Position numbers and translations under genes: made by a program
Notes under the pieces: generated by a model
Seen by the model: the letters and a program-made list of their open reading frames with translations, nothing else
Databases searched by the model: none
What the model was told of the DNA's origin: nothing
DNA from: an uncultured Eubacteriales bacterium
GTDB lineage: Bacteria; Bacillota; Clostridia; Christensenellales; Aristaeellaceae
Assembly: GCA_900318145.1 (NCBI GenBank)
Contig: ONJM01000020.1
Coordinates: 1-41,643 of the forward strand
Length of the DNA stretch: 41,643 nucleotides
Reading direction: 5' to 3'
Shown: positions 17,913 through 38,100 of the stretch, piece after piece
How the letters are laid out: every line of letters starts with the position of its first letter
Position numbering within the stretch: position 1 is the stretch's first letter

Positions 17913-18857
17913 ATGAAGAAACTGACCGCGATTATCCTTTCCCTGGCCCTGCTGCTGACGGCGGCTGCCGCGCTGGCGGACAGCAACCTGACCTTCACCA
18001 CCGGCGGTACTGCCGGCACGTACTACGCGTATGGCAACGTGCTCGCACAGTATGTCGCGGGCAACTCTGACGTCAACATCACCGCAGTCGCCGGAAACGG
18101 CTCCGCGGACAACATCGACAAGCTGGATATGCAGGTTGCCCAGCTGGGCTTCGTGCAGAACGACGTCGCCTACTACGCTTTCAACGGCATCCGGATCTAC
18201 GAAGGCGACCCCGTTACCTCCTTCACCGCAATCGCCGCGCTTTATACGGAAACCGTACAGCTCGTTACCTGCAATCCTGAGATCAAGAGCGTCGCGGACC
18301 TGAAGGGAAAGAATGTTTCCATCGGTTCCCAGGGCTCCGGCGTTTATTTCAACGCGATGGACTTCCTGGCCGCCTACGGGATGACGGAAGCTGACATCAG
18401 CCCCACCTACCAGAGTTTCGGAGATTCCGCCGAAGCCCTGAAGGACGGCAAGATTGACGCGGCCTTCGTCGTGGCCGGCGCCCCGACTCCCGCCGTGACA
18501 GACCTGGCAACCAGCAAGGACACGTATCTGGTTTCCCTGGACGACGAACACGTTGAAATCCTGCAGGGAATCTCCGGCGCATACACAAAGAGCCTGATCC
18601 CCGCCGGCACCTACGCCGGGCAGAATGAGGACATCGTGACGGTGGGCGTGAAAGCCACCATCATCGCGAACGGACAGGTGAGCGACGACGAAGCATACGC
18701 CATCGTGAAGACCATCTTCGAAGGCAAGGACAGCATCGCGCACGACAAAGCCAAGGAGCTTGACCTGGCATACGCCTCCGAGTGCGGACTGCCTTACCAT
18801 CCCGGCGCCGCGAAGTATTTCGCCGAGCAGGGCATCACCGTCGAAACGGCCAAGTAA
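17913..18857 (+). CDS. TAXI-family TRAP transporter solute-binding protein
   Basis: The 314-residue secreted protein binds a small organic acid or amino acid outside the cell for the TRAP permease downstream. Residues 1-22 are a signal peptide ending AAALAD, with no cysteine, so it is not a lipoprotein. The TAXI signature is present: TTGGTAGTYYAYGNVLAQYV near residue 29-48, then GNGSADNIDKL, the QLGFVQNDVAYYA strand, LKGKNVSIGSQGSG and the FGDSAEALKDGKIDAAFVVAG segment. ATG 17913 follows AAAGGAG. Sodium-coupled uptake is the norm for TRAP systems; TAXI members often take glutamate or dicarboxylates, but the ligand here cannot be told. Confidence 0.92.
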   Translation: MKKLTAIILSLALLLTAAAALADSNLTFTTGGTAGTYYAYGNVLAQYVAGNSDVNITAVAGNGSADNIDKLDMQVAQLGFVQNDVAYYAFNGIRIYEGDPVTSFTAIAALYTETVQLVTCNPEIKSVADLKGKNVSIGSQGSGVYFNAMDFLAAYGMTEADISPTYQSFGDSAEALKDGKIDAAFVVAGAPTPAVTDLATSKDTYLVSLDDEHVEILQGISGAYTKSLIPAGTYAGQNEDIVTVGVKATIIANGQVSDDEAYAIVKTIFEGKDSIAHDKAKELDLAYASECGLPYHPGAAKYFAEQGITVETAK

Positions 18858-18875
18858 GATTCTGTCCGGAACAGG

Positions 18876-18911
18876 GGAATCCGCTTCCCGGGAGGGCGCG
18901 GATTCCTTTTT
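18876..18911 (+). terminator. Attenuating terminator between TRAP binding protein and permease
   Basis: GGAATCCGC (18876-18884) pairs with GCGGATTCC (18898-18906) in a perfect 9-bp stem followed by five T. It ends most transcripts after the binding-protein gene and leaves less message for the permease, as expected for such a pair. Confidence 0.85.
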
Positions 18912-18941
18912 CGGTTATATGATGATTGAGGAGCGTTATCT

Positions 18942-21221
18942 GTGAAGAAGAAAATTCAGGAACCGATCGATCAGGCAGCGGCGGTGAACGCGGACGAACG
19001 GGAGAAAACCGCGGCGGAGCTTGAAGCGATCATGCGGAAATATGACCGCGAGAGCAATGTCAGAGTCTGGGAAGGCAAGCCGAAGATCTTTGTCGGAATC
19101 GTGCTGGCGGCTTTTTCCATGTACTGCATTTATGTGACCCTTTTCGCCAACCTGCTTGACCAGGTCCGGCTCAGTTCCTTCCTCGGCCTGGTGGTGGTGA
19201 TGGGATACCTGACCTACCCGGCCAGGAAAGGGCACGTGAAGGTCAATCACATGCCGTGGTACGATATCGTACTAATGCTCCTGGGCGCGGCCGCTTTCTT
19301 TTACTATACCTTCAGCGCTTCGACGCTGGTGACGATGCGCGTCGCGAAGAAACTGACGAATCCGCTGTATATTACCGCCGGGGTCGTCGGGATCCTCGTA
19401 CTCTGCGAGCTGTGCCGCCGGAGCGTCGGCCTGCCGATTCTCTGCGTATGCGCCGTGTTCCTCGGCTATACGATCTACTTCTACGTCAAGGACGGGAAGC
19501 TGCTTGCCAATGTGGTGCACGAGCTTTTCTACAATGAGAACGGACTGCTTTCCACCCCCGTGAACGTATGCTCCAAGTATATTGTGGTGTTCATCATATT
19601 CGGCGCGTTTCTGGAGAAGACGGGCATATCCGAGTTTTTCATCGCGCTGGCCAACAGCCTTACGGGGCGCTTCGCCGGCGGCCCGGCCAAGACGGCCGTG
19701 GTTTCCTCGGCACTGTGCGGCATGGTTTCCGGTTCATCCGTGGGCAACACGGTGACGACGGGATCCATGACGATCCCCATGATGAAAAAGACCGGGTATG
19801 ACAAGAATTTCGCCGGCGCGGTGGAAGCCGCGGCTTCCACCGGCGGACAGATCATGCCGCCGATCATGGGCGCGGCCGCGTTCCTGATGGCGGACTATCT
19901 GGGCGTGCCGTACTCCAACATCATTGTGCGCGCGATCCTGCCCGCGTGCCTCTATTTCCTGGGTGTGTTCTTCTCCGTCCATCTGGAAGCGAAACGCGTC
20001 GGACTGAAGGGCCTGAGCAGGGACCAGCTGCCCCGCATCAAGGAGCTGGTCAAGGACAGCTACCTGCTGCTGCCGCTGCTGATCCTGATCTACCTGGTCT
20101 GCTCCAATATGAAGACGATGCAGTTCTCCGCCGCGGTTTCGATTGTGGCGACCATCGTCGCGGGCCTGATCTCCAATTACCTGAAGATGCGCAAGGCGGT
20201 CAAGGATACACAGGCGGAGGAACAGGGTTCGATCAACGAAGCGTACCTGCTGCCGTTCGCAATTCTGGTATACCTGCTTCTGTCCCTGAAGTATGATGTG
20301 GAGACCTCTCTTGTCGCCACAGCGGTCATCAGCGTAGTGGTATGGTTTATCTGCTGCTATATCGTCATGCGGAAGGCTTACCGGAAGCTGCGCACGAAAG
20401 ACGAGGAATTCAGGGTACAGACCGAAGAAGAGGACCGGCAGCTGTTCAAGTCCCTCAACGTGTTCCAGGCGCTGGAGAACGGCGGGCGGAACTGCATTTC
20501 CGTGGCTGTTGCCTGCGGCGTCGCGGGGCTGATCTGCGGCTGCCTGACCGTTACGGGCCTGGCTTCCACGGTGATCAACACGATCGTGACCATCTCCCAG
20601 GGCAAGCTGTTCCTCGGCCTGCTGCTGACCATGATCTGCTGTATCATCCTGGGTATGGGACTGCCCACCACGGCAACCTACTGCATTATGGCTTCCACCT
20701 GCGCGCCGATCCTGATTCAGATGGGCGTTCCCATGCTGGCCGCGCACTTCTTCGTTTTCTACTACGGCATCGTTGCGGACATTACACCGCCTGTCGCGCT
20801 GGCTGCCTATGCCGGTTCCGCCATATCCGGCGGCAGCCCGATGAAGACAGGCCTGAACGCGACCCGGCTCGCAATCGGCGGCTTTATCATCCCGTTCGTT
20901 TTCGCCCTGAGCCCGAGTATGCTGCTGATCAATACGACCTGGTATGATGTGGCGCTGATCACCGTTACCTCCATGGTCGGCATGTACGGCGTCTGCTTCG
21001 GTCTGAGCGGATTCAAGCCCGGGCAGAACCAGGGCGGCATGCTGGCGCTCGGGATCGTACAGCGCGTGCTGTCCGTCGCGGGCGGCCTGATGCTGATCTA
21101 TCCCGGCTGGATCACAGACATTGCCGGTTGCGTCCTGGTTGGCGGCGTTATGCTGTGGCAGAAGCTGAGTTCCGGGAAAAAAACGCCGGATGCGGGAAAA
21201 CCGGCTGAAGCAAACGCATAA
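18942..21221 (+). CDS. Fused TRAP transporter permease (DctQ-DctM type)
   Basis: The 759-residue inner-membrane protein joins the small and large TRAP permease subunits, as is usual for TAXI systems. After a charged cytoplasmic N-terminus (about 45 residues) four hydrophobic segments correspond to the small subunit. The large subunit follows, with the conserved phrases GGPAKTAVVSSALCGMVSGS, STGGQIMPPIMGAAAF and GMGLPTTATYC. A charged cytoplasmic loop lies near residue 480-505. The start is GTG 18942, set by GAGGAG at good distance; no ATG gives a better reading. It works with the binding protein encoded upstream and is followed by a very strong hairpin. Confidence 0.94.
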   Translation: MKKKIQEPIDQAAAVNADEREKTAAELEAIMRKYDRESNVRVWEGKPKIFVGIVLAAFSMYCIYVTLFANLLDQVRLSSFLGLVVVMGYLTYPARKGHVKVNHMPWYDIVLMLLGAAAFFYYTFSASTLVTMRVAKKLTNPLYITAGVVGILVLCELCRRSVGLPILCVCAVFLGYTIYFYVKDGKLLANVVHELFYNENGLLSTPVNVCSKYIVVFIIFGAFLEKTGISEFFIALANSLTGRFAGGPAKTAVVSSALCGMVSGSSVGNTVTTGSMTIPMMKKTGYDKNFAGAVEAAASTGGQIMPPIMGAAAFLMADYLGVPYSNIIVRAILPACLYFLGVFFSVHLEAKRVGLKGLSRDQLPRIKELVKDSYLLLPLLILIYLVCSNMKTMQFSAAVSIVATIVAGLISNYLKMRKAVKDTQAEEQGSINEAYLLPFAILVYLLLSLKYDVETSLVATAVISVVVWFICCYIVMRKAYRKLRTKDEEFRVQTEEEDRQLFKSLNVFQALENGGRNCISVAVACGVAGLICGCLTVTGLASTVINTIVTISQGKLFLGLLLTMICCIILGMGLPTTATYCIMASTCAPILIQMGVPMLAAHFFVFYYGIVADITPPVALAAYAGSAISGGSPMKTGLNATRLAIGGFIIPFVFALSPSMLLINTTWYDVALITVTSMVGMYGVCFGLSGFKPGQNQGGMLALGIVQRVLSVAGGLMLIYPGWITDIAGCVLVGGVMLWQKLSSGKKTPDAGKPAEANA

Positions 21222-21321: not shown

Positions 21322-21359
21322 AAAATGAGTCAGTGAGAACCGTCCCCACTGACTCTTTT
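21322..21359. repeat. Palindromic GGGGACGGTTC repeat, locus D
   Basis: GAGTCAGT (21327-21334) and ACTGACTC (21348-21355) pair around GAACCGTCCCC; AAAAT and TTTT extend the arms. The left flank (GTTTTTTCC and AAAATGAGTCAGTGAG) is the same as in locus C. The unit overlaps the 3' end of the degenerate-TIR gene and supplies its last seven codons and stop. Confidence 0.85.
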
Positions 21360-23318
21360 GGCTAGGGCAATCCGGCCGGCGAGGTCCGGGGGGATCTCCT
21401 GCTTTTCCCTGCGCTCGAACACGATGCCGTCAAGGAGAACGGCGGAGGAATGCTGCAGGCCGGATCCGGGATCCGTCGGCCCGTAAGGCAGGTAATTCCC
21501 GAAGGACCAGTCATCCGGCCCGACAACGGAACGGATTGAAGCTACCTTTTCCGGCACCCGCAGATCCCAGACGGAAACGCCCCGGAAACCGGGAATCAGC
21601 GTCAGCCCGTCGGAAGTAAAGAGCGGCGAACGGGCGGAAGAAAGGCCGGACGAGCCTTCATCCGTGAAGGAACGGACCAGGGCTCCGGAATCCAGGTCAT
21701 AGACCGTCCAGCCGCAGGTGAGCCAGCTCCGGCCGTCCGCGCATTCCGAAACGGTGATATATTCATCCTCAACCGGCGTGTCCGTCCCGATCCCTTCCCG
21801 GATCGTATACAGCTCCCGGAAAGGATCCCGGGCAAAGACAGTCAGCCCGCGGCCGCTTCCGATCAGCGTCCGCCTGCCGCCGGCGTCCACGATATCCGTG
21901 ATTCCCTCCAGGGTGTACAGGTACCGGAAGGGACTGCGCTGCCAGACTTCCGTTCCTTCCTCTGTCAGCGCGAACAGGACACCGCATCCGTCATAGCTGA
22001 GAATATTGGTATAGGCGCCTTCGCCTTCCCGCGCGGGGAAACCGCCTTCATCGAAGAAGGGGATGAACTGCCCGGTCCGGAGGTCCGCCCGTTTGGCTTC
22101 GCCGTCCCGGAGCCAGATCAGCGAGTCGTCCTCCAGGATCACCGCGTTATCAGTGATCCCGGTTCCGCCGTGCCGCTCCGGCGCGCCGCACAGGTCCACA
22201 TAACAGTGGTTTCCCTGCGCGTCCCGCAGGAAATAATCCTTTTCCGGCGCGTCCGGATAATGGATCAGGGTGAACCCGGTTTTGCCGGCTTTGCCCGCCA
22301 GGACCATGAGGCCGTATTCCTTTGATTCAGCACGGAGATCATAACGGACGCGAGCGTCCTCCGTTTCCACATCCGGCGGGGGAGGCAGGTGAAGCATCAT
22401 ATCATTCAGGATGGACGGCCGCGGCTCCGGAGACTCCCGGTTCCGGGAAGCCAGATAATCCTGCTTTGACGCCACGGGGACATAGCCGCCGGCGCAGAGC
22501 GTTTTCAGCGCTTCCTCCAGCGCCTCCGCGACGCCTTCCGTTTCCTGCATGTCCGGAAGAATTTCCAGCAGCAGCTCCAAGGCTTTTTCGCTTTTTCCTT
22601 CCGCCAGGGCGCCGCGGGCTTCCAGCGCGACCGTACGGGCATACGCTTCGTATGCCGCTTCCTTCTGCCGGGACGCTTCATCCCGGGCTTCCGCCGCCGC
22701 GTGATACTGCAGGGACAGTTCCCGGTTCTGTGCCGCGATGACCCGCATCCGGTTCACGGCGTAAACGAGAAAGACCAGCGCAGACGCCAGCGCCGCGGCG
22801 CCGGCGATCAGCAGCCGCCGGTTCCGGGCCCTGCGCTTCCGGTCCAGCAGATCGTCAAACCGCACGCCGAGAACCGGCGCCAGCAGGCGGAGCTGCTCCG
22901 TTTCGAGTTTCTTTTTCCAGGCTTTGCCCGCACCGGAGATGTTCGCGGCCAGCGGTTCATGCTCCACGAGGGTGCCGTCTTCCTTTTCTTCAAAACGCAG
23001 GCTGCGGGGAAAGCTTGTATCCGGCGTGCCGTCCGCCAGCAGCGTCAGGATCCGGCTGAACCTGCCCCGGGTGATGAAACCGCCAATCTCCCGGCTGATT
23101 GCCTCATCCCCCGGTGTTTCAGGCGTACAGACCACGATAAGCCATTCCTCATGCACATCCGCGAGGCGCCGGGTCCCTGTCCGCGCGGCGATTCTTGCCG
23201 GAATCCGGAAACGTTCCAGGTTTCCGGCGAGCGTTTCCGTGACCGCCCTGATTTCGTCCGCTTTTCCCCCCGGGGCTTCCGGGCAGACGATCCGGATTTT
23301 TCCGATTTCTTTTATCAT
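21330..23318 (-). CDS. Membrane-anchored degenerate-TIR protein with propeller-like sensor region
   Basis: The 662-residue protein is the second gene of the TIR operon. ATG 23316-23318 overlaps the stop of the upstream gene as ATGA, behind GGAGGGCGG, so translation is coupled. Residues about 1-110 look like the second half of a clostridial TIR domain: FRIPARIAA, EEWLIVVCTPETPGDEAISREIGGF and ILTLLADGTPDTSFPRSL. Both the FISYRH strand and the FRDxDELP loop of the upstream protein are absent, but the glutamate (Glu77) that aligns with its catalytic Glu87 is kept. A membrane segment is at 168-187, a helical/coiled segment at about 190-250, then a beta-rich region with W-D and D-L-R-T repeats. 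It is probably a non-enzymatic or regulatory partner. The last residues VSGDGSH come from repeat locus D. Confidence 0.8.
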   Translation of the reverse strand: MIKEIGKIRIVCPEAPGGKADEIRAVTETLAGNLERFRIPARIAARTGTRRLADVHEEWLIVVCTPETPGDEAISREIGGFITRGRFSRILTLLADGTPDTSFPRSLRFEEKEDGTLVEHEPLAANISGAGKAWKKKLETEQLRLLAPVLGVRFDDLLDRKRRARNRRLLIAGAAALASALVFLVYAVNRMRVIAAQNRELSLQYHAAAEARDEASRQKEAAYEAYARTVALEARGALAEGKSEKALELLLEILPDMQETEGVAEALEEALKTLCAGGYVPVASKQDYLASRNRESPEPRPSILNDMMLHLPPPPDVETEDARVRYDLRAESKEYGLMVLAGKAGKTGFTLIHYPDAPEKDYFLRDAQGNHCYVDLCGAPERHGGTGITDNAVILEDDSLIWLRDGEAKRADLRTGQFIPFFDEGGFPAREGEGAYTNILSYDGCGVLFALTEEGTEVWQRSPFRYLYTLEGITDIVDAGGRRTLIGSGRGLTVFARDPFRELYTIREGIGTDTPVEDEYITVSECADGRSWLTCGWTVYDLDSGALVRSFTDEGSSGLSSARSPLFTSDGLTLIPGFRGVSVWDLRVPEKVASIRSVVGPDDWSFGNYLPYGPTDPGSGLQHSSAVLLDGIVFERREKQEIPPDLAGRIALAKRVSGDGSH

Positions 23319-26251
23319 TGTCCGCCCTCCAGCCATGCTTTTGCTTTTTCGATCAGCGCGCTATCGTCCGTGAGCCGGATCAACGCCGGAAGAAGATCAT
23401 TGGCGAAGACGCAGACGGTCTTTCCGTCCGGGGACAGGACACCGTTTATCTTTCCGGCCCGGAAGGGTCTGAACAGCGGCTCGCCATCCTCCAGACGGAT
23501 GACGGAATAGGCCGAACCGTCGGATGTCTCCCGACATTCGTCCTCCGCCACCATCACATACTGCTCCCCGGAGGTGGTCATGCGCCGGCCGGCTTCGCTG
23601 TCCAGGTCCTCTGCCGGCCCGGTCGTCCCGTCCGGATTCAGCATACAGACGCGGTACAGATATTCGTCCTTCCACTCCGCGGAAGAGCCGCCGGAATAGG
23701 GATAGTACACATAGGCCGCCTCGCCGGCGATGCGGTATTCCCGCAGGATCCGCGAGTCCATATCGAAGCGCCAGAAGAAACGGGTGCCCGGATCTGCTTT
23801 CCGGTAGCCGGAGACCATGATGAGGCGGTTTTCCGGAGAGACATCCAGCGCGGCGATATATTCCTCCTGATCCAGAGAGAGCAGGAGGGTTTCCTCCAGC
23901 AGTTTTCCGGTTTCGGTTTCCAGACGCTGCCAGACGCAGTCTTTTGTCCAGGCCCTGTTATTCAGACTGAGCCGGACGTTGCAGATTTCCCGCCCGTCCG
24001 GAGAGAAGAACAGCTCTTCGCTGCCTTCGCCTTCCCAGAGGATTTCGTCCGCTGCCGGATCGAACACGCAGAATTTACCGCCGTATTCATGCTGCGCGAT
24101 CATCCGTGTTCCGTCCGGGCTTTCGAGCGCCGCGCGGACGCTGAAGCTCCGGCCGGTTACGTCAACAGCGCGGAGCGTTTCCCCTGTCTCCGTATCGACG
24201 CAGTGATAGCCGTTCATATCATCATTTCCGCGCCATATGGTTTTCCCGTCCCGGGAAAGAAACGCGCGGCAGTGCGCGCTGGCCTGCGTGGTCCAGGAAT
24301 GCTCGTTCCGCCACAGAAGCGCTCCGGTTTCCGCGTCCCATTTATAAAGGCTGCCGCGGCCGCCTTCGGTGTATACATACCTGCTGTCCGCGCTGAACAG
24401 AACCGTACGGCATCCGGTCTGGATCCCCGGCGCGTACAGGGTGACGGCATCCGAAACCTTTTCATCATTCTTTACCGTGACACTGTAGAAGTCCGCCGCT
24501 TCCCCGTACAGGACCAGCACGGAACCGCCGGAATGGGGGAAACTCCATTCATCGAACCCGCCCCAGTATACGGCGCGCGGCTCCTCCTCCGTGACGACCG
24601 CGGTGACGAGGGAACCGTCGGAATAACGGTAAACGCGGAAACTGTCCGAACAGCAGGCAAGCAACTGCTTCCTGGCATGGCAGTACCAGATCTGCCGGAT
24701 CGGCGCGGGGGATTCCAGGGTGTAGACTTCCTCGAGCGTGACGGGATCCAGCAGGACTCCGCGCCCGTCCCGCGACGCCGCGAAGAGGCCGTTGGTCGTG
24801 TAGGCGTAGTGGACAAAGCTCCAGGCACCTTCCGCTTCCCCGCGGCATTCCCCGGTTGAAAGATCAAAGAGGCGCAGCCTTCCGCCTTCCTCCACGACCG
24901 CCAGGCGATGATTGCGCCAGCTGACGGACCGGATTTTTCCGGATACATCCAGTTCAGCGACCGCCGCCGACCGGCCTTTGTTATTATCCACGGCAAACAG
25001 CGCGGTACGCGCTTCCTGCCCTTCCGCCGGCTCCTCCAGCGACGCGAGGAGGAAAAATCCGTCGGGGCTCTGCCACAGACGATCTGCAAAGAAGGGCTCT
25101 CCATTCAGCGTGAAATTCCGGGAGGTTACATCGTTTCCGACGACCTGGCGCATCTGCCTGTCCCGGCCGTAATAAATCCGGTTCTCATACTGGTGCGCGA
25201 CCTGATATCCGCGGGCGAAGCCCTCCGCTTCGGCTTCCATCTGCGCCGTACAGGGCTCCCGCGTCATTTCCCCGGCGGAGAAGGAATACTTCCAGACCGA
25301 TTCCGGATCCTGGCCGCTGAAAAAGGTCACGGTATCGGATTCCCAGTATACCGGCGCGGAACGGACCGGGAAACCGGGCTCGATCCGCACGGTTTTTTCA
25401 TAGCCCTCCTTCGGCATCGCCGGGATATTCAGCACCTGCCGGAGGACGTTCACCGCGCGGTAAGAGGCCGGTTCGTCCGGTTCCCGCGGCAGCGCCTCCA
25501 GCGCCTGCTCCACCGCGAAGGTTTCCTCGCCGGCCAGAAGGGCTTTTTCCGCTTCCCCGGCATAATAGTCCGAACGCTTTTTCAGCGCGCCGTTCCGCTG
25601 CGCGAGCGCTTCCGCCTTTTCCTGCCCGGCTTCCAGCGTCGCGGCCGCGATCTCAGTGTTTTTTCCGGAAATCACCGCCGCGGTGCGGACAGCGTACAGC
25701 GCAAACCCGACCGAGGCCGCCGACAGCAGGGCAAGCAGCCCGGAGCACACGGCAATCCGCCTGTTCCGCCGGGCAGCGGTGATTGCGGCCTCCTCCGCGC
25801 CGTACATACGGCTGAGCAGGGAAGGGATGACTTTTTTCATGGTTCCTGGCAGCGTGCGCTCCGGCACATCCCGCAGATCCGCGGCAATGGGAAGGTCCCG
25901 CAGCGGCTCCGGAACCGCCGTTTCAGCGCTCCCGCCGGTCAGCACCGGCAGGATCCGGTCCTTCCGGCCCAGGGAGATATATTCATCGATTTCCCGCATG
26001 CACCAGCGGGACTGTACATATTCATCGGAACACAGGGCGATCAGCCAGCCGCTTTCCGCCAGCGCGTCCTCAATATCCCTGCCGAGGTCGGAACTGGTGG
26101 GCAGCTCATCCGTATCCCGGAAGACACGGCGGCTTCCCGCCGCAAGCTCCCGCGGCAGGGCGTGGGTCTCCAGCCCTTTCCGGAACAGGCCGGAGATCAG
26201 CTGATCCCGGTCCCGGTGCCTGTAGCTGATAAAAGCGAGGTATCTGCCCAT
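23315..26251 (-). CDS. TIR-domain protein with membrane segment and WD40-like propeller region
   Basis: The start is ATG 26249-26251, placed by GGAGG ten bases ahead; a longer reading from 26296 would put that site inside the gene. The 978-residue protein begins with an intact TIR domain: FISYRH at 7-12, FRDTDELP (the BB loop) at 44-51 and SRWCMREIDEY at 81-91, where Glu87 is the expected catalytic residue of TIR NAD-cleaving enzymes. A membrane segment spans about 166-186, followed by a coiled coil to about 240, a short helical EQALEALP segment, and some 700 residues of repeated beta strands with D-x-E-T-G and S-x-D-G-x patterns, probably propellers that sense a ligand. The architecture belongs to a known clostridial TIR family of unknown trigger. 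It is divergent from the adenosine-deaminase-like gene and shares a mirrored promoter with it. A role in phage defence or stress signalling is inference. Confidence 0.88.
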   Translation of the reverse strand: MGRYLAFISYRHRDRDQLISGLFRKGLETHALPRELAAGSRRVFRDTDELPTSSDLGRDIEDALAESGWLIALCSDEYVQSRWCMREIDEYISLGRKDRILPVLTGGSAETAVPEPLRDLPIAADLRDVPERTLPGTMKKVIPSLLSRMYGAEEAAITAARRNRRIAVCSGLLALLSAASVGFALYAVRTAAVISGKNTEIAAATLEAGQEKAEALAQRNGALKKRSDYYAGEAEKALLAGEETFAVEQALEALPREPDEPASYRAVNVLRQVLNIPAMPKEGYEKTVRIEPGFPVRSAPVYWESDTVTFFSGQDPESVWKYSFSAGEMTREPCTAQMEAEAEGFARGYQVAHQYENRIYYGRDRQMRQVVGNDVTSRNFTLNGEPFFADRLWQSPDGFFLLASLEEPAEGQEARTALFAVDNNKGRSAAVAELDVSGKIRSVSWRNHRLAVVEEGGRLRLFDLSTGECRGEAEGAWSFVHYAYTTNGLFAASRDGRGVLLDPVTLEEVYTLESPAPIRQIWYCHARKQLLACCSDSFRVYRYSDGSLVTAVVTEEEPRAVYWGGFDEWSFPHSGGSVLVLYGEAADFYSVTVKNDEKVSDAVTLYAPGIQTGCRTVLFSADSRYVYTEGGRGSLYKWDAETGALLWRNEHSWTTQASAHCRAFLSRDGKTIWRGNDDMNGYHCVDTETGETLRAVDVTGRSFSVRAALESPDGTRMIAQHEYGGKFCVFDPAADEILWEGEGSEELFFSPDGREICNVRLSLNNRAWTKDCVWQRLETETGKLLEETLLLSLDQEEYIAALDVSPENRLIMVSGYRKADPGTRFFWRFDMDSRILREYRIAGEAAYVYYPYSGGSSAEWKDEYLYRVCMLNPDGTTGPAEDLDSEAGRRMTTSGEQYVMVAEDECRETSDGSAYSVIRLEDGEPLFRPFRAGKINGVLSPDGKTVCVFANDLLPALIRLTDDSALIEKAKAWLEGGQ

Positions 26252-26310
26252 CCGGTATTTCCTCCGACAAGGATTATTCATTGCTTTTGCCTTCATTTTC
26301 CGCCGGTTCT

Positions 26311-26339
26311 ATTTTCCGTTCCGCCGCCTTTTCTGTCAA
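26311..26339 (-). promoter_or_regulatory. Promoter of the TIR operon
   Basis: On the minus strand TTGACA (26339-26334), a 17-base spacer and GAAAAT (26316-26311) lie 60 bases before the TIR start. The region is a near copy, in mirror orientation, of the promoter at 26364-26392. Confidence 0.6.
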
Positions 26340-26363
26340 GAGATTCCGGAGTGCTTTCCGATA

Positions 26364-26392
26364 TTGACGGAAGGCAGCGGAACAGATAGAAT
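26364..26392 (+). promoter_or_regulatory. Promoter of the adenosine-deaminase-like gene
   Basis: TTGACG (26364-26369), a 17-base spacer and TAGAAT (26387-26392) precede the start at 26474. Several CGGAA/TTCCG half-sites lie in and around the two divergent promoters and could bind a shared regulator. Confidence 0.72.
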
Positions 26393-26473
26393 TGAATCAA
26401 CACACACGGAAAAAGGAACAAGCACTGCCGGGGAGCGGCACGGGGAAGGCCTGAAATCAGGGAGGGGAGCCGG

Positions 26474-28915
26474 ATGATCTTTTTTCAGAAATTCTACCTG
26501 GACCGGGAAAAGGACCTGGTGACGGACCTGTATCTTCAGGGAGAGCGCCTTTTCTATGTGATCCACACGCCCAACCACCACACCGGCAACCTGATTACGA
26601 ACTTCGCGCGGCTGTGCCGTCTGGAGACCAGCGAGGACGAAAACGGACTGAAGGTGATCCGCGGCGAAATCCCGTGCTATTACAACGGCGACAATGAAAG
26701 GATGTATATCCTGCGGCTGGGAAACACGAAGATCGCCAATATCTATCCGGACGGGCGGGTGGAGCTCAAGGCTTCCATTCCCGCGATCTCCAAGACGCTG
26801 ATGAGCCAGACGAAGGACTACCGGCTGGGCGTGGAAAAAACGATCGTGAAGACCTACATCCGCAGCGACTGCAAGTTCCGGACGGACCTGCACACGCACA
26901 TGAACGGCAACCTGCCGCCGGACGCGCTGACCGCAATCGGGCTGATCCACCAGATCCGCTATCCGTACTACTACATCAAAAAGCTCGGACTGAAATGCAC
27001 GGCGGAACAGACCGCCGCACTGGAAAAAGCCCGGGCGGAGGCGGAGAAGCAGCTGGGGGATACGGGGCTGACCGGGCGGCACAGGGAACGCCGGATCGAC
27101 GACCATACCTTCATCAACTTCGCCGAACTGATCCTCGGGAACCCGAAGGACGCCGCGGAGAACATCGGAAAGATCCGCAATTCCCTGACTATTCCGAAGG
27201 ACGGGCAGGCCGTGTTCGCGGACCTGGAAAAAGTGTACCTGTACCGCTATGTATTCACCCGGGGAAAAGCTTCGGAATCCCTTTTCAGCGGGATCAACAC
27301 GGGCGGCATCCCCGACCCGGAGGTGCGCACCTACGCGGAAAGGATGCAGCGCGACCGGGAGGACGACCGGTACTGCCGGAATACGCTGTATCAGGATCTG
27401 CTGCTGTGGATCGCGCGGGAATACCGGCGCTACGGGATCGAATACGCCGAGATTTCTGACACGATGCTGCTGAACGGCGCGGCATTCCCGGCCCGGCTGC
27501 GGGAGATCCACGAGATCATGCCGCAGATTACCCGGGAAACAGGCGTACGGCTCCGCTTCCTGGCGGGAATCCGGCGGGTGCCGCTGACGATCATGCAGGA
27601 CAGCCGGACGCCGGCGGACTACCTGGCGGAGAGTCTGCGGTGCCTGCGGACGATCGCCGGCGATCCGTACGTGGCGGGCAGCGACATCGTGGGCGAGGAA
27701 ATCAACGATATCCTGGAGCTGCGCGACGTGATCCGGGAGCTGACGGCGATCGCGGGGCAGCATCCCGGATTTGTGATCCGGATCCACGCGGGCGAGAACG
27801 ACAGCCTGCGGGACAACGTGGCGAACAGCATCCGCTGCGTCCGGGAAGCGCTTGCCCCCGGGCAGGAGATGCCGCGGCTGCGCATCGGCCACGGCCTGTA
27901 TACCTGCAACCTGCAGGGCGCGAAAGGGAAGAAGCTGCTGGAGGAAATGCGCGGCAGCCATGTGACCCTCGAATTCCAGATCACCTCCAACGTCCGGCTG
28001 AACAACCTGAGCTCGCTGGAGAAATATCCGCTGCGGCAGTACCTGCAGGCGGGAATCCGCTGCGTGCAGGGCACGGACGGCAGCGCCCTTTACGGAACCA
28101 ACTCCATTGACGAGGAGCTGAGCCTGGAAAAGCTGCTGGGGCTCGGCACGGAGGAGCTGCACCGGATGCAGCAGACGGAATCGGAGCTGCTGGAGGAAAG
28201 CGTCCGCGACTTTGAGCGCAAGCAGGAACGCTTCCGGCAGGAGCGCGCCGGGGAAGATATCGAGCAGTACTATGAAAAGGCGCTCGAAAGAACGGAGAAG
28301 CCGGAGATCCGCCTGCAGCCGGCAGGAAAAACCGTCAGCGCGGAGACGGCGCTGAAGGACCGGATCGCGGCGCTGCCGGAAAACATGCTTCCGATCGTGA
28401 TCTGCGGCGGCAGCTTCAACAGCAGCAGCCGCAGGACCATCGTACGCCGGGAGGAACGGGAACTGATTGACAGGCTGCTGGAACGCGCGGATCCGGACAA
28501 AGTGTTCTTTGTGGTCGGGCACACGCTGACGGGACAGGAGGGCTACCTGGCGCGGCAGGCGGCGGGACGGTTCCGGGTTTACGCCATCGTTCCGAACCGG
28601 CTGACCCGCGCTGCGGCGGAAGCGCTGCGCGCAGCCGGCACCGGCATCCTGATTTCCATTGAGAGTTCCGGACTCGGATTATACAAGAGCGTTTCCTATG
28701 AAGTCTTCCGGAAGACGCCGTCCGTCCTGCTGGCCTTTGACGGCAATTCAGCGGCGCTGAACCTGATCCAGCAAGCGCGGAACAGCAGCAACCGGCATCA
28801 GATTTTCATCAATCCGCGGTCCAGGGGACTGACGGAAAAGGCACGGATGCTGGAAGGCTATGTCCGGCAGATGCCGGACGCGGCCGGCGTATCCGAGCTG
28901 CTCAGCACGGAATAA
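26474..28915 (+). CDS. Adenosine-deaminase-like protein fused to a Rossmann/SLOG-like domain
   Basis: The 813-residue protein has three parts. Residues 1-130 are an unrecognised N-terminal domain. Residues about 135-560 carry the adenosine/AMP deaminase metal site: DLHTHMNG (His140, His142), RIHAGEN (His438, catalytic Glu441), RIGHGLY (His473) and QGTDGSALYGT (Asp535). The usual second Asp after Asp535, which contacts the purine in classical deaminases, is Gly. A charged helical linker (565-610) leads to residues 638-770, which alternate strands and helices with glycine loops (IVICGGSFNSSS, FFVVGHTLTGQEG, GTGILISIESSG) like nucleotide-binding SLOG/LOG folds. It starts at ATG 26474 behind GGGAGGGGAG. 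It resembles RdrB of RADAR in size and deaminase domain, but no RdrA-type ATPase is present. Substrate could be a nucleoside, nucleotide or signalling nucleotide; this is open. Confidence 0.78.
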   Translation: MIFFQKFYLDREKDLVTDLYLQGERLFYVIHTPNHHTGNLITNFARLCRLETSEDENGLKVIRGEIPCYYNGDNERMYILRLGNTKIANIYPDGRVELKASIPAISKTLMSQTKDYRLGVEKTIVKTYIRSDCKFRTDLHTHMNGNLPPDALTAIGLIHQIRYPYYYIKKLGLKCTAEQTAALEKARAEAEKQLGDTGLTGRHRERRIDDHTFINFAELILGNPKDAAENIGKIRNSLTIPKDGQAVFADLEKVYLYRYVFTRGKASESLFSGINTGGIPDPEVRTYAERMQRDREDDRYCRNTLYQDLLLWIAREYRRYGIEYAEISDTMLLNGAAFPARLREIHEIMPQITRETGVRLRFLAGIRRVPLTIMQDSRTPADYLAESLRCLRTIAGDPYVAGSDIVGEEINDILELRDVIRELTAIAGQHPGFVIRIHAGENDSLRDNVANSIRCVREALAPGQEMPRLRIGHGLYTCNLQGAKGKKLLEEMRGSHVTLEFQITSNVRLNNLSSLEKYPLRQYLQAGIRCVQGTDGSALYGTNSIDEELSLEKLLGLGTEELHRMQQTESELLEESVRDFERKQERFRQERAGEDIEQYYEKALERTEKPEIRLQPAGKTVSAETALKDRIAALPENMLPIVICGGSFNSSSRRTIVRREERELIDRLLERADPDKVFFVVGHTLTGQEGYLARQAAGRFRVYAIVPNRLTRAAAEALRAAGTGILISIESSGLGLYKSVSYEVFRKTPSVLLAFDGNSAALNLIQQARNSSNRHQIFINPRSRGLTEKARMLEGYVRQMPDAAGVSELLSTE

Positions 28916-29069: not shown

Positions 29070-29124
29070 CGGTATTCCAAATCTCCGGACAAGACAGAAA
29101 CGAAAAACAAGGATGGGAAAAAGC

Positions 29125-32100
29125 GTGAACAGCGGAGCAAAGAAGACGATCGTAAAACTGCTGACACTCCTGGCGGGTCTCTGCCTGCTGACAGGCCTGC
29201 TCTGGACAGCGGACACCGGACTGCGGAGCCTGCCTGCCGCGTATGCGGAAGGCGGCCACAGCGACGACCACAACAACGAGGGAGACGGAAACAAAATCGA
29301 GAGCATCCACATCCACTGGGTTTCGGCGGACACGGTGGATGACAGCGAGGCCGATAATCTGTATATCCGCACTTCCTCGACCTCCGAGCTCACGATGCAG
29401 TATCAGATTGACGTGAGCTTTTCCGGGCAGTTCGACTATGAGCCCGGCGCGATCCGGATTACCCTGCCGCCACAGATCTGGCACCAGCGGGACCTGGGAA
29501 GCAGCAAGGGAGGAACCCTGCCCGGCGGTTATGGCTCCCTGTCCCTTTCTGTTCCGGACGCGAGCATTACCTCGACGGACTGGCACTATGAGATCAATGA
29601 GGATGGAACCTATTCCATCGTCAATACCAAATCGATTGCCGCCACCAGCAAGGCAATGTTCCAGTTCACGATCCGCAAGCTTTATCCCCAGTACATGGTG
29701 GACGAAAACAAGTCGGACGAGCTGATGGCCCACTGCGAGGTTGTCACCCATGAGGGCAACACAATCTGGCTTGATTCCAACGTGCTTACGGCACAGATCG
29801 ATACCCAGGAAACCCTCAGCCATGCCTACAAGAACGGAGAACTGTACGAGGATCCGGATTCCGTTCCCGCGGCGCTGCTGGAGATGCTTCCGGAGGGCGC
29901 GGACCCGAAGAATTATATCTATGTAAAATGGCGGACCTATCCCCAGTACTCCGGCAACCAGTTCTTCAGCCTGGATGTGGAAGACCAGGGCAGCGTGCCC
30001 GTGGACGGGGCATACAGCCCTGAAGCGGATCTGGCGAACAATGTAGGCTGCTACAGGGTGGTCTATGACGAGGAAGGCCATGAACAGGAACTGGTCTGGA
30101 CGGCGCCTGCCGTTATGCTCGGCGAGAGCGGCAAGGGCAGCGTGGACGGCAACATCTGGACCAAGGACGTGCTGACAAATACCTGGAACAACAGCGGCAC
30201 AAGTTCCTACAACAACGCGTGCACCATCTGGACGGCCTACAGCACCGAGGATATGGAGTGGGACACCACCTACCGGCTCCTGAACAAATCCACATGGACG
30301 CTGACAGAGTTTGACCCGGACGCGGATTATCCGGAAGCCCTGGGAGGGACCGACCCGCAGAGAATCACCACAGCGAGCGCCACCAGCTCCGTTACCTATA
30401 CCCGGGCCAAATGGCAGTACCCTCCGGGACGCTTCATGGTATTCAAGTACACCGAGCAGACGGAGACGCACAAGCACAGCACTGCCAGCGCTGATTCATA
30501 CAGAAACGGAAACTATCATCAGAAAAACTATACCTACGAGATGGCACTGAACCGCCTGCGCAAGGGCCAGGACGTGGATATGCAGTATGAAGTGCTGACC
30601 GTAGGCTACGGCTATATCTTTACCGCGGGTCCGCTGGCCAATACCGTGATGTGGGAGGATATCAACGGAGCCGAACACTCAGCCCCGCTGGACAAGGACC
30701 TGGACGAACCGTACGACGACGCGTGGGATTCCGCGGCGTGGGCGGATGATCCGGAACACTACCTGAACTGGTATTACGTGATGGACACCACGGACCGGTG
30801 GAACTGGTTCCAGAACGTGGACGGCGAACCGGAGAGCCAGCTGATCAAATCAAACTCCGACGACTATGAATTCCTGGGCGTTACCATCGCGTCCCCGGAA
30901 ATGTTCGACTGGGACCGGTCCAAGAATCCTACCTATTATTATTCATCACAGGGTTCCACCTTCGGCTTTATCCCGGATGAAACCATCGCAAAGCCCGCTG
31001 TGGAGCTGTGGGTGGAGCTGGACAACGATGCGGCGGACGAGAGCGGATACGCCGTGGACAAGGATGGGTGGGTGTATGTCGGCAGCTACACCGTCCAGAG
31101 CGGCAAAACCCAGTACATCGATTTCAAAGAGCTGGGCTATTCCGGCGTGACCGGATACCGGACCCGCATCGCGTCGAACCAGGCTGCCACGAAGCTGGCC
31201 GTTTACCCGCATATCCGGCTGAAGGCTTCCGAGCGGGTAATGGGCATCGTGGAGGACCTGTTCGCCGAGAGCGAGACCCCCTCCACCACCTACCGGAACG
31301 ACGACATGATGTACGTCGACCTGTATCACCACGCGGAACGCACGGAAGTGGGCGTGGACAAGGACGTGCATCCGAACCAGGCAATGTTCCTGGACGAGGA
31401 TAAATATACACATCTGTATATCTGGAAGGACAACTCCCGGGCGACCCTGACCGGCGCGGGCTACGGCGTTGTGCCGAACAAGAGCGTGCGCTTTGATCCG
31501 GTGGATGACAACGATGTCGTGAACCGGCGGGTGATCCTGCACTATTCCGCCTATGTGGACGAGATGACCAACCTGACCTCCGTGGCCAACTGGCGGGAGG
31601 CAGTGGAGCTGGGCGCCGTCAAGGAGGAAAAGAGCGGCATCTGGTACGACCTGCTGCCGGAAGGCGTAATTCCCCTGACAGACACCGTCAGGCTCCGGGG
31701 CGGGGACAGCATCAATTATGTGCGTACCTACGACAACTGGGGCGGCACCGGACGGATCCTGCTGGTGGTGGACTGCAATCTGAAAGCGGTGCCTGGAAGG
31801 TATAACTCAAACAGCATTATCAGCGACCGGCCGACACTCAGCTTTGACGCCACCTACACCTGGACGGATATCAACAGCCTGGGCGGCCAGCTGGTGAACT
31901 ACGTCGCCTTTGAAAGCGGAGACGACGAGCAGCTGGGCACACTTGCCGGACGTATCGGCGAGCCGGACGCCATGGTCCGCCGGAACAACAACTATACGCC
32001 CAACCGGGAGCCCGCGAATATCGTGAAAGCCCTGACCGATCTGGATCCGGACTCCGACAACGCGCGGTTCGTGTATGCCAAGGCGAATGTGAACCTGACG

Positions 32101-35100
32101 GTCGACCAGATGGCGCAGACGGAGTATGTCAAAAACGTCAAGAACGACCTGGACGGCATCTGGACGCAGGGACTGTCCGGACAGACGCAGGTGAACGTCT
32201 ACGAAGGGCAGACCTATACATACCGGCTGCGGGTTGCCTCCGCGAAGGATACGATCACCAGCAACATGGTGATGTACGACAGCCTGGAAAACTACCTGAT
32301 CCCCGAAGGCGGCGGCCAGGAGCATGACGCCTCCAAGCAGGAGGATCACGACGAGGTGGAATCCAAAAAGGACTGGGACGGAGACTGGGACCGCAAGACC
32401 GTCACTGTCGGCGCGGAAGGCTATGAAGAGGAGATCGAGGTCGGCGGCCAGTGGCGCGGCAGGCTTACGTCCATCGACCTGAACGAGTTTATCGCAAAAG
32501 GCTGCGCACCGATCATCTATTACGCCACGCAGCCCTGGCTCCAGTTCGGCGATACCACGGGAAGCGTGGTCGACGAAAGCATCTTCTTCAATTTTGAAGG
32601 CCGGTACGATCTTTCCGACAATTCGACCTGGACCCGTGTGGGGACCCTTACCAACGGCGTCTGGAACGTACCGGACGGCGTGAATGTGACCGCGATCGCG
32701 CTGGATCTGCGCAAACGGACGGACGGCAGCGAATTCCAGCTGATGAGCCAGGAAGCCGGCGCGGCCTATCTGCACATGATCGCGCCGGATGACCACGGGG
32801 ACGAGAGCGCCTGGCACGCAAAGGGCGCGTACGCGCATATCAACGAGGACGGCAGTGCTTCCACCAATCTGGATATCGACTGGGACGCCGCGCTGGATCC
32901 CGTCAACAACATGCACGCCTACAACAATACCCGCCTGATTGCCCGGGTGACCTATGAGGACGGCGGAGCCTACTCCTTCCTCACCATGATCCGCAACGAC
33001 TATACCCGTGTCGGAATCATGCCCCAGATTATCCGCGTGGAAAAAGTCTGGAACGACGACGACAACCATGACGCAATCCGGCCGGCGAGTGTTACCGTTA
33101 CCATGAAGCGGAAGACTCTGGGAGCAGCCGGGGATTATGAGACAGTCCTCGACGAGACAACCGGCGAACCGGTGACCGTGGTACTGAATGAGGAAAACGA
33201 ATGGTCCGGAATTTTCTTCCAGGCGGACGTGGTGGATAAAAACGGAACACCGTACCTGTATACCTTTGAAGAAGAAGAAATTGAAGGGTACACAGGTTCC
33301 GTCACCCGGATCGACGATACCCATTTCACGCTGACCAACACCCATGAGAATGAAAAGATCTGGATCAGCGGAGAAAAACAGTGGCTGATGCCGGACGGCA
33401 GCGAGCTGCCCGATGAGGCGGAAAGCCTGAAGCCGGCGCAGATCACCGTCAGCGTATACCGGAAGGGAAGCAGCGGGGAAGAGGAATTTGTTACTTCCGG
33501 GACCGTAACGCCGGATGCGGCGACCGGTGACTGGAAATACCTGTTCACCGACCTGGACAAATATGAGCGCGGCGGTTTCGAGTACATCTACAGCGTCGTT
33601 GAAACACCGGTGGATTATTTCTGGTCTTCGACGTCGGACGAATCGGAAATGCCGGACGGATATACCGTTCCCTTCGAGTACGATCCGGACGCGATTGATA
33701 TCATCTATAATTTCTATATTCCCTACGGCGACCTGAGTGTCACCAAGAAGATTGAAAGCGCCACCAGCGTCTCAGAGGAGCAGGAATTTACCTACCATCT
33801 CAGCCTGCTGACCAGGGACGCGGAGGGTGAGGACCTTCCGGTGGAAGAGTCTTTCGAGTACACGATTTATGAAATCGACGGGACAGAGGAAGCGGAAACG
33901 CTGACCCCGGTTTCATCCGGGACCATCGGACACGAAGGCAGCTTCAAGCTGAAAGGCGGCCAGCGGATCATTATCCGGAAGATTCCGGTCGGGGTACGCT
34001 ATACGCTTACGGAAGACGAGGCTGCAGGCTGGACGCAGACGGACACTGTCAACGATACAGGAACCGTTCCCACGGTGACCACCATTGCCGCGGAGTTCAC
34101 CAATACCTATTCCGCCAGCGGCAACGGAACGCTGAAAACCAACAAAAAGCTGACAGGCCACAATATGACCCGGAACAGATTCGTATTCAATATTGTGGAT
34201 AATAATCCGGATTCCGATACCTACGGCAGCGTAATCCGCACGGCCTACAGCCCCGCGGCGGACGGAGAGCGGGACGAAGACGACAACAGCCTCGAGGTAT
34301 CCGCGGAGGTTCTGTTCCCCTCTCTCACATACACCGAGGCAGACGCGGGCAAAACCTTCTACTATATTATCCAGGAAGCGATTCCCGAAAACGCGGCGGA
34401 CAACGGGGACGGAACCTTCACCCTGGACGGTTATACCTACACACTGCAGGAGCGCGAAGCCCGGGTGGACGTGACGGATAACGGCGACAGCACCCTGACG
34501 GTGACGGTCTTCTACAAGAATCCTGATACCGGCGAGTGGCTTGCCGGAACGGATTATCTGCCGGAGCTGACGAACGAGTACACTGCGGAAGGCGAAAACG
34601 CGCTGACAGCCTTCAAGGTGCTGATGAAGCGGGACCTTGAAGACGAGGAGTTCACCTTCGAGCTTCTGGACATGACGGAAGGATCCGAAACCTACGGGCA
34701 GGTGATCCAGACCAAGAAAAACAACGGGGAAGGCATCATCAGCTTCGATCCGATTTCCTACACCGAAACGGACGTGGACCGTACCTTTACCTATCTTGCC
34801 CGCGAGAAGGTTGGCAGCGATGTAACGGTGATCTATTCCGACTCCGTATTCCTGTATCATATCACGGTTCATGACAACAACAACGGGACCCTGTCCTTCA
34901 CGGAAGAGGACCAGGCCGGGACCCGCACCCATACGGAATGCGCCGCGTGCGGCGGGACGGGTATGACGGGCGACCTGGCCTGCGGCACCTGCGCCGGCAT
35001 GGGCTATACCCTGGGTGACGGATATACCGCCGCGGAGGGCAATGCCGCTCCGGTATTCATCAACGACCTGCACAATGGCAAACTGACCCTGAAGAAAACC

Positions 35101-38100
35101 ATTACCTCCGGCGATCCCTCCACGCCCTTCACTTTCCGCGTGAAGTTTACGGGTATCGGCGCCGGGACGATTTCGATCGACCGTGACCAGGGCGACGCCA
35201 CCGGCGGAGAGGACACCGGCGATGACGGTCAGGATGAATCGGATATTTCAGGCATTTTGCCGGTTTACCATGCTGATGACAGTGAAATTACAGGGAGAAC
35301 AGCTTATGCCGCGTTAAATGTCCAAACCGGTGAGCTGATCTTCTTCCGCTGTGATCCGAACGACCGAATGGATCCGTGGGGGAATAACTTCACGATTACC
35401 AGCGGAAACCGGCAAGCGTCCGCGGACGGGAATTTTGTCTGGTACAGCGGAGTGGAATCCGGCAATCATCCCTGGACAAGCACAAGCTATACAGATTACC
35501 AGAAAATTACTTCAGTGAGCATGCGCGATCCGCTGAGGCCGGGCGGGTTTTCATACTTCTTTGAAAACTGCTCAAATCTGGTAAATCTTGACCTCAGCAA
35601 GCTGGACGTACCGGAAGGCAATTCAATCTCCATGTATGGTACATTCAGGAATCTGCAGAGCCTGAAGAGTGTAAACCTTGGAACTGTCAACATGTCCAGG
35701 ACATCTGACGTTCAGTATATGTTCCGGTACTGTTATTCGCTTGAGACTGTGAATATCGGGCACCTGAAGCGTTCCGGAAGTGCACTTACAAGTACCAATT
35801 ACCAAAACTATGCTTTTGACGGACCTGTCATTACACAGATCACCATCGGAAATGAGACTACATTCAGCGCAAGAATGCCCAGCGGGAATGCATGGCAGCG
35901 ACAGTATCCCACGCCGCCTGCCGGTTATGAGGATCTGTGGGTGAACGTCGATACAGATGAACAGCTGACTTCAGCACAATTGTTCACGGAGGGAAACCAT
36001 GGCGGCACCTGGGAGCTGGATCCCAAATACTACATTGTGACATTTGACAACACCGGCGTCGTGGGCAGCATGCAGGACCGCCGGGTGAACGTTCACCGGA
36101 ACTTCTCTGTTGGCAGCACCTTCTACAAGTTCGGATACAAATTTACCGGATACACGGATCAGTTCGGAAACAGCTTCGAGGCGGACGCCAAGGGAAAGAT
36201 CCTTATTCCCGCGGGAACATATAACAGTTATATGTCTGCGGGCGAGGAGCTGACCGTCACGCTGACGCCCACCTGGGAACCGCTTTCCAACGAGCTGGAT
36301 GTGGAAGGCGATACCGTTACCGTGACGCTGTACCCGGGTGAGAGCGTAACGTTCAAGGATATCCCCGCCGGCACTGCCTATGAGATCTGGGAGGAAGTGC
36401 CCACCGGCTGGATTCTGACGGAACGGGTCAACGATTCCGGCGTGATTGAACCGCTGGAAACCGAAGAATCGGAATTTACCAACGAGTACGCACCCGGCTC
36501 GGTAACCGCTTCCCTGACCGCCAGCAAAATGTTTGACGGGCAGCTTTCCGCCAAACCGTTCAACTTCGGCCTGTACGAACTGGCGAACGCGGCGGATACG
36601 GAAGGCACCCTGATCCAGACAAAGGAAAACACCAGGGGCGGCGTCGCCAGCTTTGACATCATCCGTTACAATTATCCCGACGACGTCGGCCAGCATGACT
36701 ACATCATCCGGGAAATTGTTCCTGACGAGGGCGATGAGGATTACGACCCGACGATTGAATATGACACCCATTCCGAACGCGTAACCGTTCTTGTTACGGA
36801 CGACGGCAATGGAAACCTTTCCATCGTGACCAGCTACCGGGACGGCACCGGTGTGTTCGAGAACAATACAAAGCCCGGCACCCTTACCCTCGCAAAGACC
36901 GGTGAGAACATGACGGAAGCCGCGGGCAATTCCCTGTTCACTTTCACTATCCGGTTCCGGGATAAAGACGGCAATCCCGCCGACACCGGCGACGCGTATT
37001 ATGTTTACATCGCAGGATCCGGCGCACCGGAATGGGAGGATCCGGCCAGCTCCGCCGAGAAGGAAACCGGCAAACCCAGTATCACCGTATCCGCGCCCGG
37101 AACCGCGCTGACACTTTTCCATGCCTCGGAGGAGGAACTGGCGGGTGAAGCCTGCGTGGTTATTTCGGACGGGAAGCTGACTTTCATCCGCAGCAATGAG
37201 GCCCCGTCGGGCAACACGATCACGGATATCCACGGAAATTCCTACACAGGAACGATTTTCACAGGTGTGGAAGACAGTTCGTTCTACCGTGAATGGAATA
37301 ACGGGACCTACGCCGTGGAGTTCGTGGATCCCATCAAACCCAGGAGCATGATGGGCTGGTTTGACGGCTGCACAATCAGCAGCATCAATCTGGACAAAGT
37401 GGATACTTCCGCCTGCGCCAGCCTGGCCGGCATGTTCTATGAGGCGACGGTGAACCAGAACCTCGACCTGGGCAGCATGGACCTGTCAGCGGCGACAGAT
37501 CTGAGCAGCATGTTCTGCGGAGCCCATCTCATGAACCTGGTGATGCCTAACCAGACGCTTGCAACCGGTGACGGCGCGCTGCTTGAATTCCTGAAGGGAG
37601 CAACGGCGAACAACATCAACATGAACGGCTGGACGCTGCCGAACGTCACCAATCTGGGAAGCATTTTCACAGGCCTGACCGCGGCCAACCTGAGCGTCAA
37701 CGACTGGACCGCCGCTTCCGCAACATCAACTGTTTACAACGGCGCAAATCTTTTCGGCAACATGACCGTTGACGCGCTGAGCGCGGACAACTGGTCCGTG
37801 CCCAACGTGTCAAGCGTCGGCGGAATACTGGGCGGCAGCGCAATCACCAACGGTGTGAACATGTCCGGGTGGAACGCTCCGAAAGCCAGTACCGGAGGCC
37901 TCTTCTACAATCTGACCACGGACGTTATTACCGCCAACGACTGGACCTTTGGAAACGGCGTCGGCGGCATGTTCAGCAACACCAAAGCGGATACCGCATA
38001 CGCCAACGGATGGACCTCCGAAACCAATACAGGCATGGGCGGCCTGTGCTACAGCTTCGAAGGGCGCGTGCTGCAGCTCAACGACTGGAATTGTCCGGTC

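Follow-up and report, generated by a model that had tools for sequence, protein, structure and literature searches.

In a 41,643-nucleotide stretch of DNA from an uncultured Eubacteriales bacterium (contig ONJM01000020.1; hereafter, the window), two overlapping minus-strand genes encoding TIR-related proteins, P0002 and P0003, lie divergent from the gene for P0001, an adenosine deaminase (ADA) fused to a SLOG-fold domain. These genes probably represent two unrelated neighboring modules—that is, a stand-alone, ligand-gated ADA-SLOG deaminase and a membrane TIR/pseudo-TIR pair. An initial annotation had proposed that the three genes work jointly in nucleotide signaling or defense. This proposal was rejected and can be dropped, with TIR genes detected at none of 80 deaminase loci and with five of the six genomes carrying the pair showing no deaminase. 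Two testable units are left, namely the sensor-fused deaminase, possibly equivalent to Cad1 but self-contained, and the overlapping TIR/pseudo-TIR pair.

Linkage between the deaminase and the TIR genes

When 80 deaminase loci in other records (the best 80 of 114 from the species collection) were searched by tblastn with P0002, the TIR region of P0002, and P0003, nothing better than E 0.5 was obtained. At least 1 kb of upstream sequence was present at 74 of these loci, at least 3 kb upstream at 66, and 3 kb on both sides at 55. In a sample of 300 genomes from the family, six were found to carry the TIR pair. The deaminase, which was called (at E ≤ 0.001) in 96 of the 300, accompanies the pair only in the genome containing the window; the other five are 80–93% complete, and hence single absences of the deaminase could be gaps. 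Both outcomes named in the initial annotation as breaking the three-gene link were thus observed, with deaminase homologs lacking TIR neighbors at all 80 loci and the pair occurring apart from the deaminase. The domain calls of the initial annotation (TIR, degenerate TIR, and ADA fused to SLOG) were, in contrast, borne out by Pfam, by BLAST and alignment, and by structure prediction.

In the single-system explanation, nicotinamide adenine dinucleotide (NAD)-derived signals made by the TIR protein would activate the deaminase by binding to its SLOG domain. The genes are indeed adjacent and divergent, and the mirrored promoters described earlier were recovered as two divergent sigma-70-like sites in the intergenic gap (by consensus match only), compared with a shuffle mean of 0.3. 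There is also a precedent in Thoeris, in which SLOG senses a TIR product (PMC12948488). Furthermore, in a sample of 150 genomes (37 deaminase-positive and 113 negative), TIR_2 was found in 21 of the positive and 26 of the negative genomes (Fisher odds ratio 4.4, p = 2e-4, uncorrected for kinship), while the odds ratio for a DNA-methylase control was not significant (1.3 for strong matches and 1.25 for any match). However, when the deaminase labels were shuffled within genus, in a test having little power and only six or seven informative genera, 19.9 co-occurrences were expected and 21 observed (p = 0.32, genomes of listed genus only). The p value was 0.20 with two further genomes of order-inferred genus and <0.001 under an unrealistic, extreme placement of the 25 genomes of unlisted genus; these 25 are negative for both genes, and their omission therefore favors the null. 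The low odds of the single system rest on the missing linkage and were left unchanged by the shuffle results. As a linked system, this explanation is largely refuted and scarcely credible, whereas a weaker association in trans between the TIR genes and the deaminase is conceivable.

Clustering of the open reading frames (ORFs) within 6 kb at 81 deaminase loci, with a longest-first choice of ORFs that may pick antisense frames, revealed no neighbor family common to more than 15 of the 81 loci, and the largest family was found on both sides and both strands. Another conserved partner gene of the deaminase was rejected on the basis of these counts. ADA-SLOG is a single-gene family.

The ADA-SLOG protein and its known counterparts

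P0001 matches the Pfam A_deaminase model (E 2.3e-14) and shows the features of the ADA superfamily, namely the TIM-barrel fold and the HxH, H, E, H, and D metal/catalytic residues. These six presumed metal/catalytic residues (listed in Table 1) are unchanged in 78 of 78 ADA-SLOG sequences, and the metal site of P0001 looks intact. The C-terminal part, for which a Pfam search gave no informative model, was recognized by structure prediction as having the Rossmannoid fold of the SLOG superfamily; GGSF and YKS motifs are conserved in its putative pocket. It is 9–17% identical to the SLOG domains of TRPM MHR1/2, DprA, and molybdenum cofactor (Moco) carrier proteins, differing from these in being fused to ADA.

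Cad1, about 600 aa in length, is the type III CRISPR adenosine deaminase in which the enzyme is fused to CARF, and both Cad1 and RdrB deaminate adenosine triphosphate (ATP) to inosine triphosphate (ITP). By analogy with these enzymes, the SLOG domain of P0001 would most likely bind a nucleotide-type ligand, and the ligand-bound domain would switch the ADA deaminase, which would then convert a purine (nucleotide) to its inosine form. A mode of action like that of Cad1 and RdrB is the best-supported one for P0001, as a likeness of mechanism and not a placement in either family; ligand gating, substrate, and a putative role in defense are all suggested by this analogy.

Compared with Cad1, P0001 is larger (813 aa) and carries a C-terminal SLOG, with no CARF recognized N-terminally; the structure matches listed cover hardly any of residues 1–118. 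P0001 also shows no association with the type III-A (Csm) system, the type covered by the test: Csm1 scored over cut-off in four of the 150 genomes, including one of the 37 deaminase-positive genomes but not the window's own, and at E ≤ 0.001 (mostly below cut-off) in 9 of 37 positive and 22 of 113 negative genomes. As in the RdrB protein of RADAR, a large ADA has an N-terminal extension ahead of HxH and a long stretch ahead of the HAGE motif, a likeness taken from descriptions in PMC9994260 rather than from direct comparison of sequences. Unlike RdrB, P0001 carries an additional SLOG and has no recurring defense-type neighbor.

These likenesses raise the alternative that P0001 is a RADAR or type III CRISPR (Cad1) deaminase having lost its partner. 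Indeed, the PADLOC CARF_ADA model matches P0001, at residues 340–555 only, i.e., in the ADA part (E 1.1e-7), and HxH is located at positions 140/142 behind the long N-terminal extension, compared with H152/H154 in RdrB (PMC9994260). However, no RADAR-named family was among the PADLOC or NCBIfam matches at E ≤ 1, with the libraries not checked for such a family, no PADLOC family recurred in the 128 scanned of 152 nearest neighboring ORFs, and Csm1 was scarce. This alternative is considered very unlikely. An RdrA-named family was not among the 11 PADLOC families matched (E ≤ 1e-10) by the 128 ORFs, with the library not checked for such a model.

Thoeris consists of the TIR protein ThsB and the SIR2-SLOG protein ThsA. 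As in Thoeris, TIR genes adjoin a SLOG-fold protein, in this one genome; however, the would-be effector is a deaminase and not SIR2, and the TIR adjacency is absent from the 80 deaminase loci. Profile searches gave no SIR2 family match at E ≤ 1 in P0001–P0003, the ThsA feature thus being missing. RdrB and ThsA were not among the 50 structure matches listed for P0001, which does not exclude them. In an open-access literature search, no paper was recognized as describing the ADA-SLOG fusion or this TIR/pseudo-TIR pair; SLOG systems were reportedly surveyed earlier, by Burroughs in 2015.

Distribution and possible role of the deaminase

The deaminase calls in the family sample, which include two weak, short matches (G295 and G297) and a number of contig-end fragments, fall in only 12 of 50 genera. 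In the window's own genus, 31 of 37 genomes were positive, two of them by weak matches. Matches to the deaminase were obtained in 11 of 398 genomes across the wider phylum; these were full-length only in the window's own genome and G441 and covered short ADA stretches in the others. Titles of 65 of the 80 deaminase-locus records carry RUG, RGIG, or sheep labels, with RUG presumably denoting the rumen.

Indirect evidence indicates that ADA-SLOG is probably an accessory gene passed on singly, by horizontal transfer, among gut Clostridia. The nearest relative of the deaminase was in another genus for 9 of 23 genomes, compared with 0 of 23 for RpoB (both genes being recovered in all 23), although these genomes were drawn from the 29 best P0001 matches, which favors cross-genus similarity, and the window's own genome was left out, RpoB not having been found in it. 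Between genera, the deaminases of the 23 genomes were on average 75.6% identical, and the RpoB proteins 73.8%. Furthermore, locus pairs having any homologous gene in common within 6 kb became rarer as identity fell, from 9 of 9 pairs above 90% to 38 of 93 at 80–90% and 16 of 222 at 75–80%, which fits the deaminase gene moving alone. No relatives of the deaminase were found in viral contigs or in phage or plasmid collections, and carriage by phages or plasmids was therefore rejected; a PHROGs search gave chance-level matches only.

The choice of genomes for the RpoB comparison weighs against the interpretation of two modules with a stand-alone deaminase, as do several other points. Rearrangement can also cause the loss of shared flanks, TIR_2 is enriched in deaminase-positive genomes, and the ligand, substrate, and phenotype of P0001 are putative. 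In addition, the high prevalence in its own genus could fit a metabolic role. In the domain scan of neighboring ORFs, the 25 commonest of 147 Pfam families were mostly metabolic, transport, or signaling families, and no PADLOC family was matched by more than one of the 128 ORFs, thus giving no defense-island support for the deaminase.

A role of ADA-SLOG in purine salvage, with SLOG either serving for allosteric sensing or providing a second, nucleoside hydrolase-like catalytic domain, is a serious rival, albeit a somewhat unlikely one. Its prevalence in genus and family, the mostly metabolic, transport, or signaling neighbors, the canonical ADA residues, and the occurrence of LOG proteins among the fold matches of the SLOG domain are all consistent with such a role. 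However, the restriction to 12 genera and nearest neighbors that cross genera argue against it, as does the absence from the P0001 sequence of PGGxGT, the motif of LOG enzymes. It is decidedly doubtful that ADA-SLOG acts on its own as an immune effector encoded by one horizontally spreading gene, i.e., as a (d)ATP deaminase gated by SLOG and switched on in trans when unlinked TIR proteins produce NAD-derived signals; if so, it would constitute a third route to nucleotide poisoning by deamination, besides Cad1 and RADAR.

The TIR/pseudo-TIR pair and its surroundings

P0002 has a Pfam TIR_2 match at residues 22–142 (E 1.2e-11), a hydrophobic segment at approximately 180–205, and several beta-propeller-type matches, mostly below the curated cut-off. 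P0003 gave no Pfam match reaching E ≤ 0.001, its three weak matches (E 0.14–0.69) including one to WD40, but is similar to P0002 residues 84–270 (BLAST E 1.7e-8) and has a hydrophobic segment at approximately 173–195. The two segments agree with the earlier description of the TIR proteins as membrane-anchored. In the SRWCMREI stretch of P0002, W98, C99, and E102 are invariant in five of five sequences, and the WCxxE-region glutamate of TIR NADases is thus present. The partner, in contrast, lacks the WC motif and the segment aligned to FRDTDELPTSSDLG..IE.AL in five of five aligned pairs; we take this stretch to be the BB-loop region, a name from TIR structures. Neither of these features of TIR NADases, the BB loop and WCxxE, was found in P0003. 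The glutamate beside the lost WC motif is retained in two of five partners, including P0003; by eye, it is retained in the partner from G224 but not in that from G182. Because loss of the BB-loop region is conserved, the partner may have a role in regulation or as a scaffold: the TIR protein and the degenerate-TIR protein would probably form a hetero-complex, in which the pseudo-TIR may regulate or scaffold the active TIR.

With at most four candidates per genome scored, the search of the 300 family genomes identified the pair at eight loci in six genomes, three in the window's own and one each in G021, G083, G182, G224, and G250 (the G083 pair ending at a contig end, and the G250 pair being known from match coordinates only). 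The remaining partner-profile matches cover only the N-terminal part of the partner. The two genes, initially described as coupled, indeed form a recurring overlapping unit, with a 4-nucleotide ATGA overlap at six of the seven junctions seen (the window, C36, C23, G021, G083, and G182) and an overlap of 8–11 nucleotides in G224. Identity to the window's pair by BLAST is 26–55% for the TIR protein and 31–56% for the partner (46% over 120 aa for the cut-off G083 partner), and these low identities indicate that the arrangement is probably old.

The pairs at loci L158 (G000:C36) and L224 (G224:C21), which belong to different species of the same genus, apparently have the same upstream minus-strand neighbor, as judged by eye. 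The G224 pair is nearer to the window's pair (55–56%) than is the C36 pair of the window's own genome (32–34%). G115 and G148 contain 13 and 9 TIR_2 matches, respectively, TIR genes thus being expanded in some members of the family.

Table 1. Features of the deaminase and TIR genes in the window
Feature	Position	Strand	Basis or detail
P0001, ADA-SLOG fusion, 813 aa	26474..28915	+	A_deaminase Pfam match and predicted SLOG fold
P0001 N-terminal domain	residues 1–118		
P0001 ADA core	residues ~119–583		H140, H142, H438, E441, H473, D535
P0001 linker, then SLOG (~636–800); C-terminal SLOG-fold segment, residues 624–813	28343..28912	+	
P0002, TIR–transmembrane–beta-propeller protein, 993 aa	23315..26296	-	TIR_2 E 1.2e-11; alignment with four relatives
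P0003, degenerate TIR–transmembrane partner, C-terminal half of unproven fold	21330..23336	-	similarity to P0002
ATGA stop/start overlap of TIR and pseudo-TIR genes, 4 nucleotides	23315..23318	-	
Sigma-70-like promoter before deaminase, TTGACG-17-TAGAAT	26364..26392	+	consensus match only
Sigma-70-like promoter before TIR pair, TTGACA-17-GAAAAT	26311..26339	-	consensus match only

The three long ORFs are present in the 21330–28915 region. P0003 probably starts at 23318, where an ATG overlapping the P0002 stop is preceded by GGAGGG, giving a protein of 662 aa, and P0002 probably starts at 26251, with GGAGG upstream and relatives beginning near the same point. On the plus strand at 17913–21221, a binding protein with a signal-peptide-like start is followed, by eye, by a large multi-spanning membrane protein, resembling a TRAP-type transporter. 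At 29113–41643, also on the plus strand and running past the window end, one open frame spans at least 4177 aa, has a hydrophobic, signal-peptide-like N-terminal segment (by eye), and perhaps encodes a giant surface protein.
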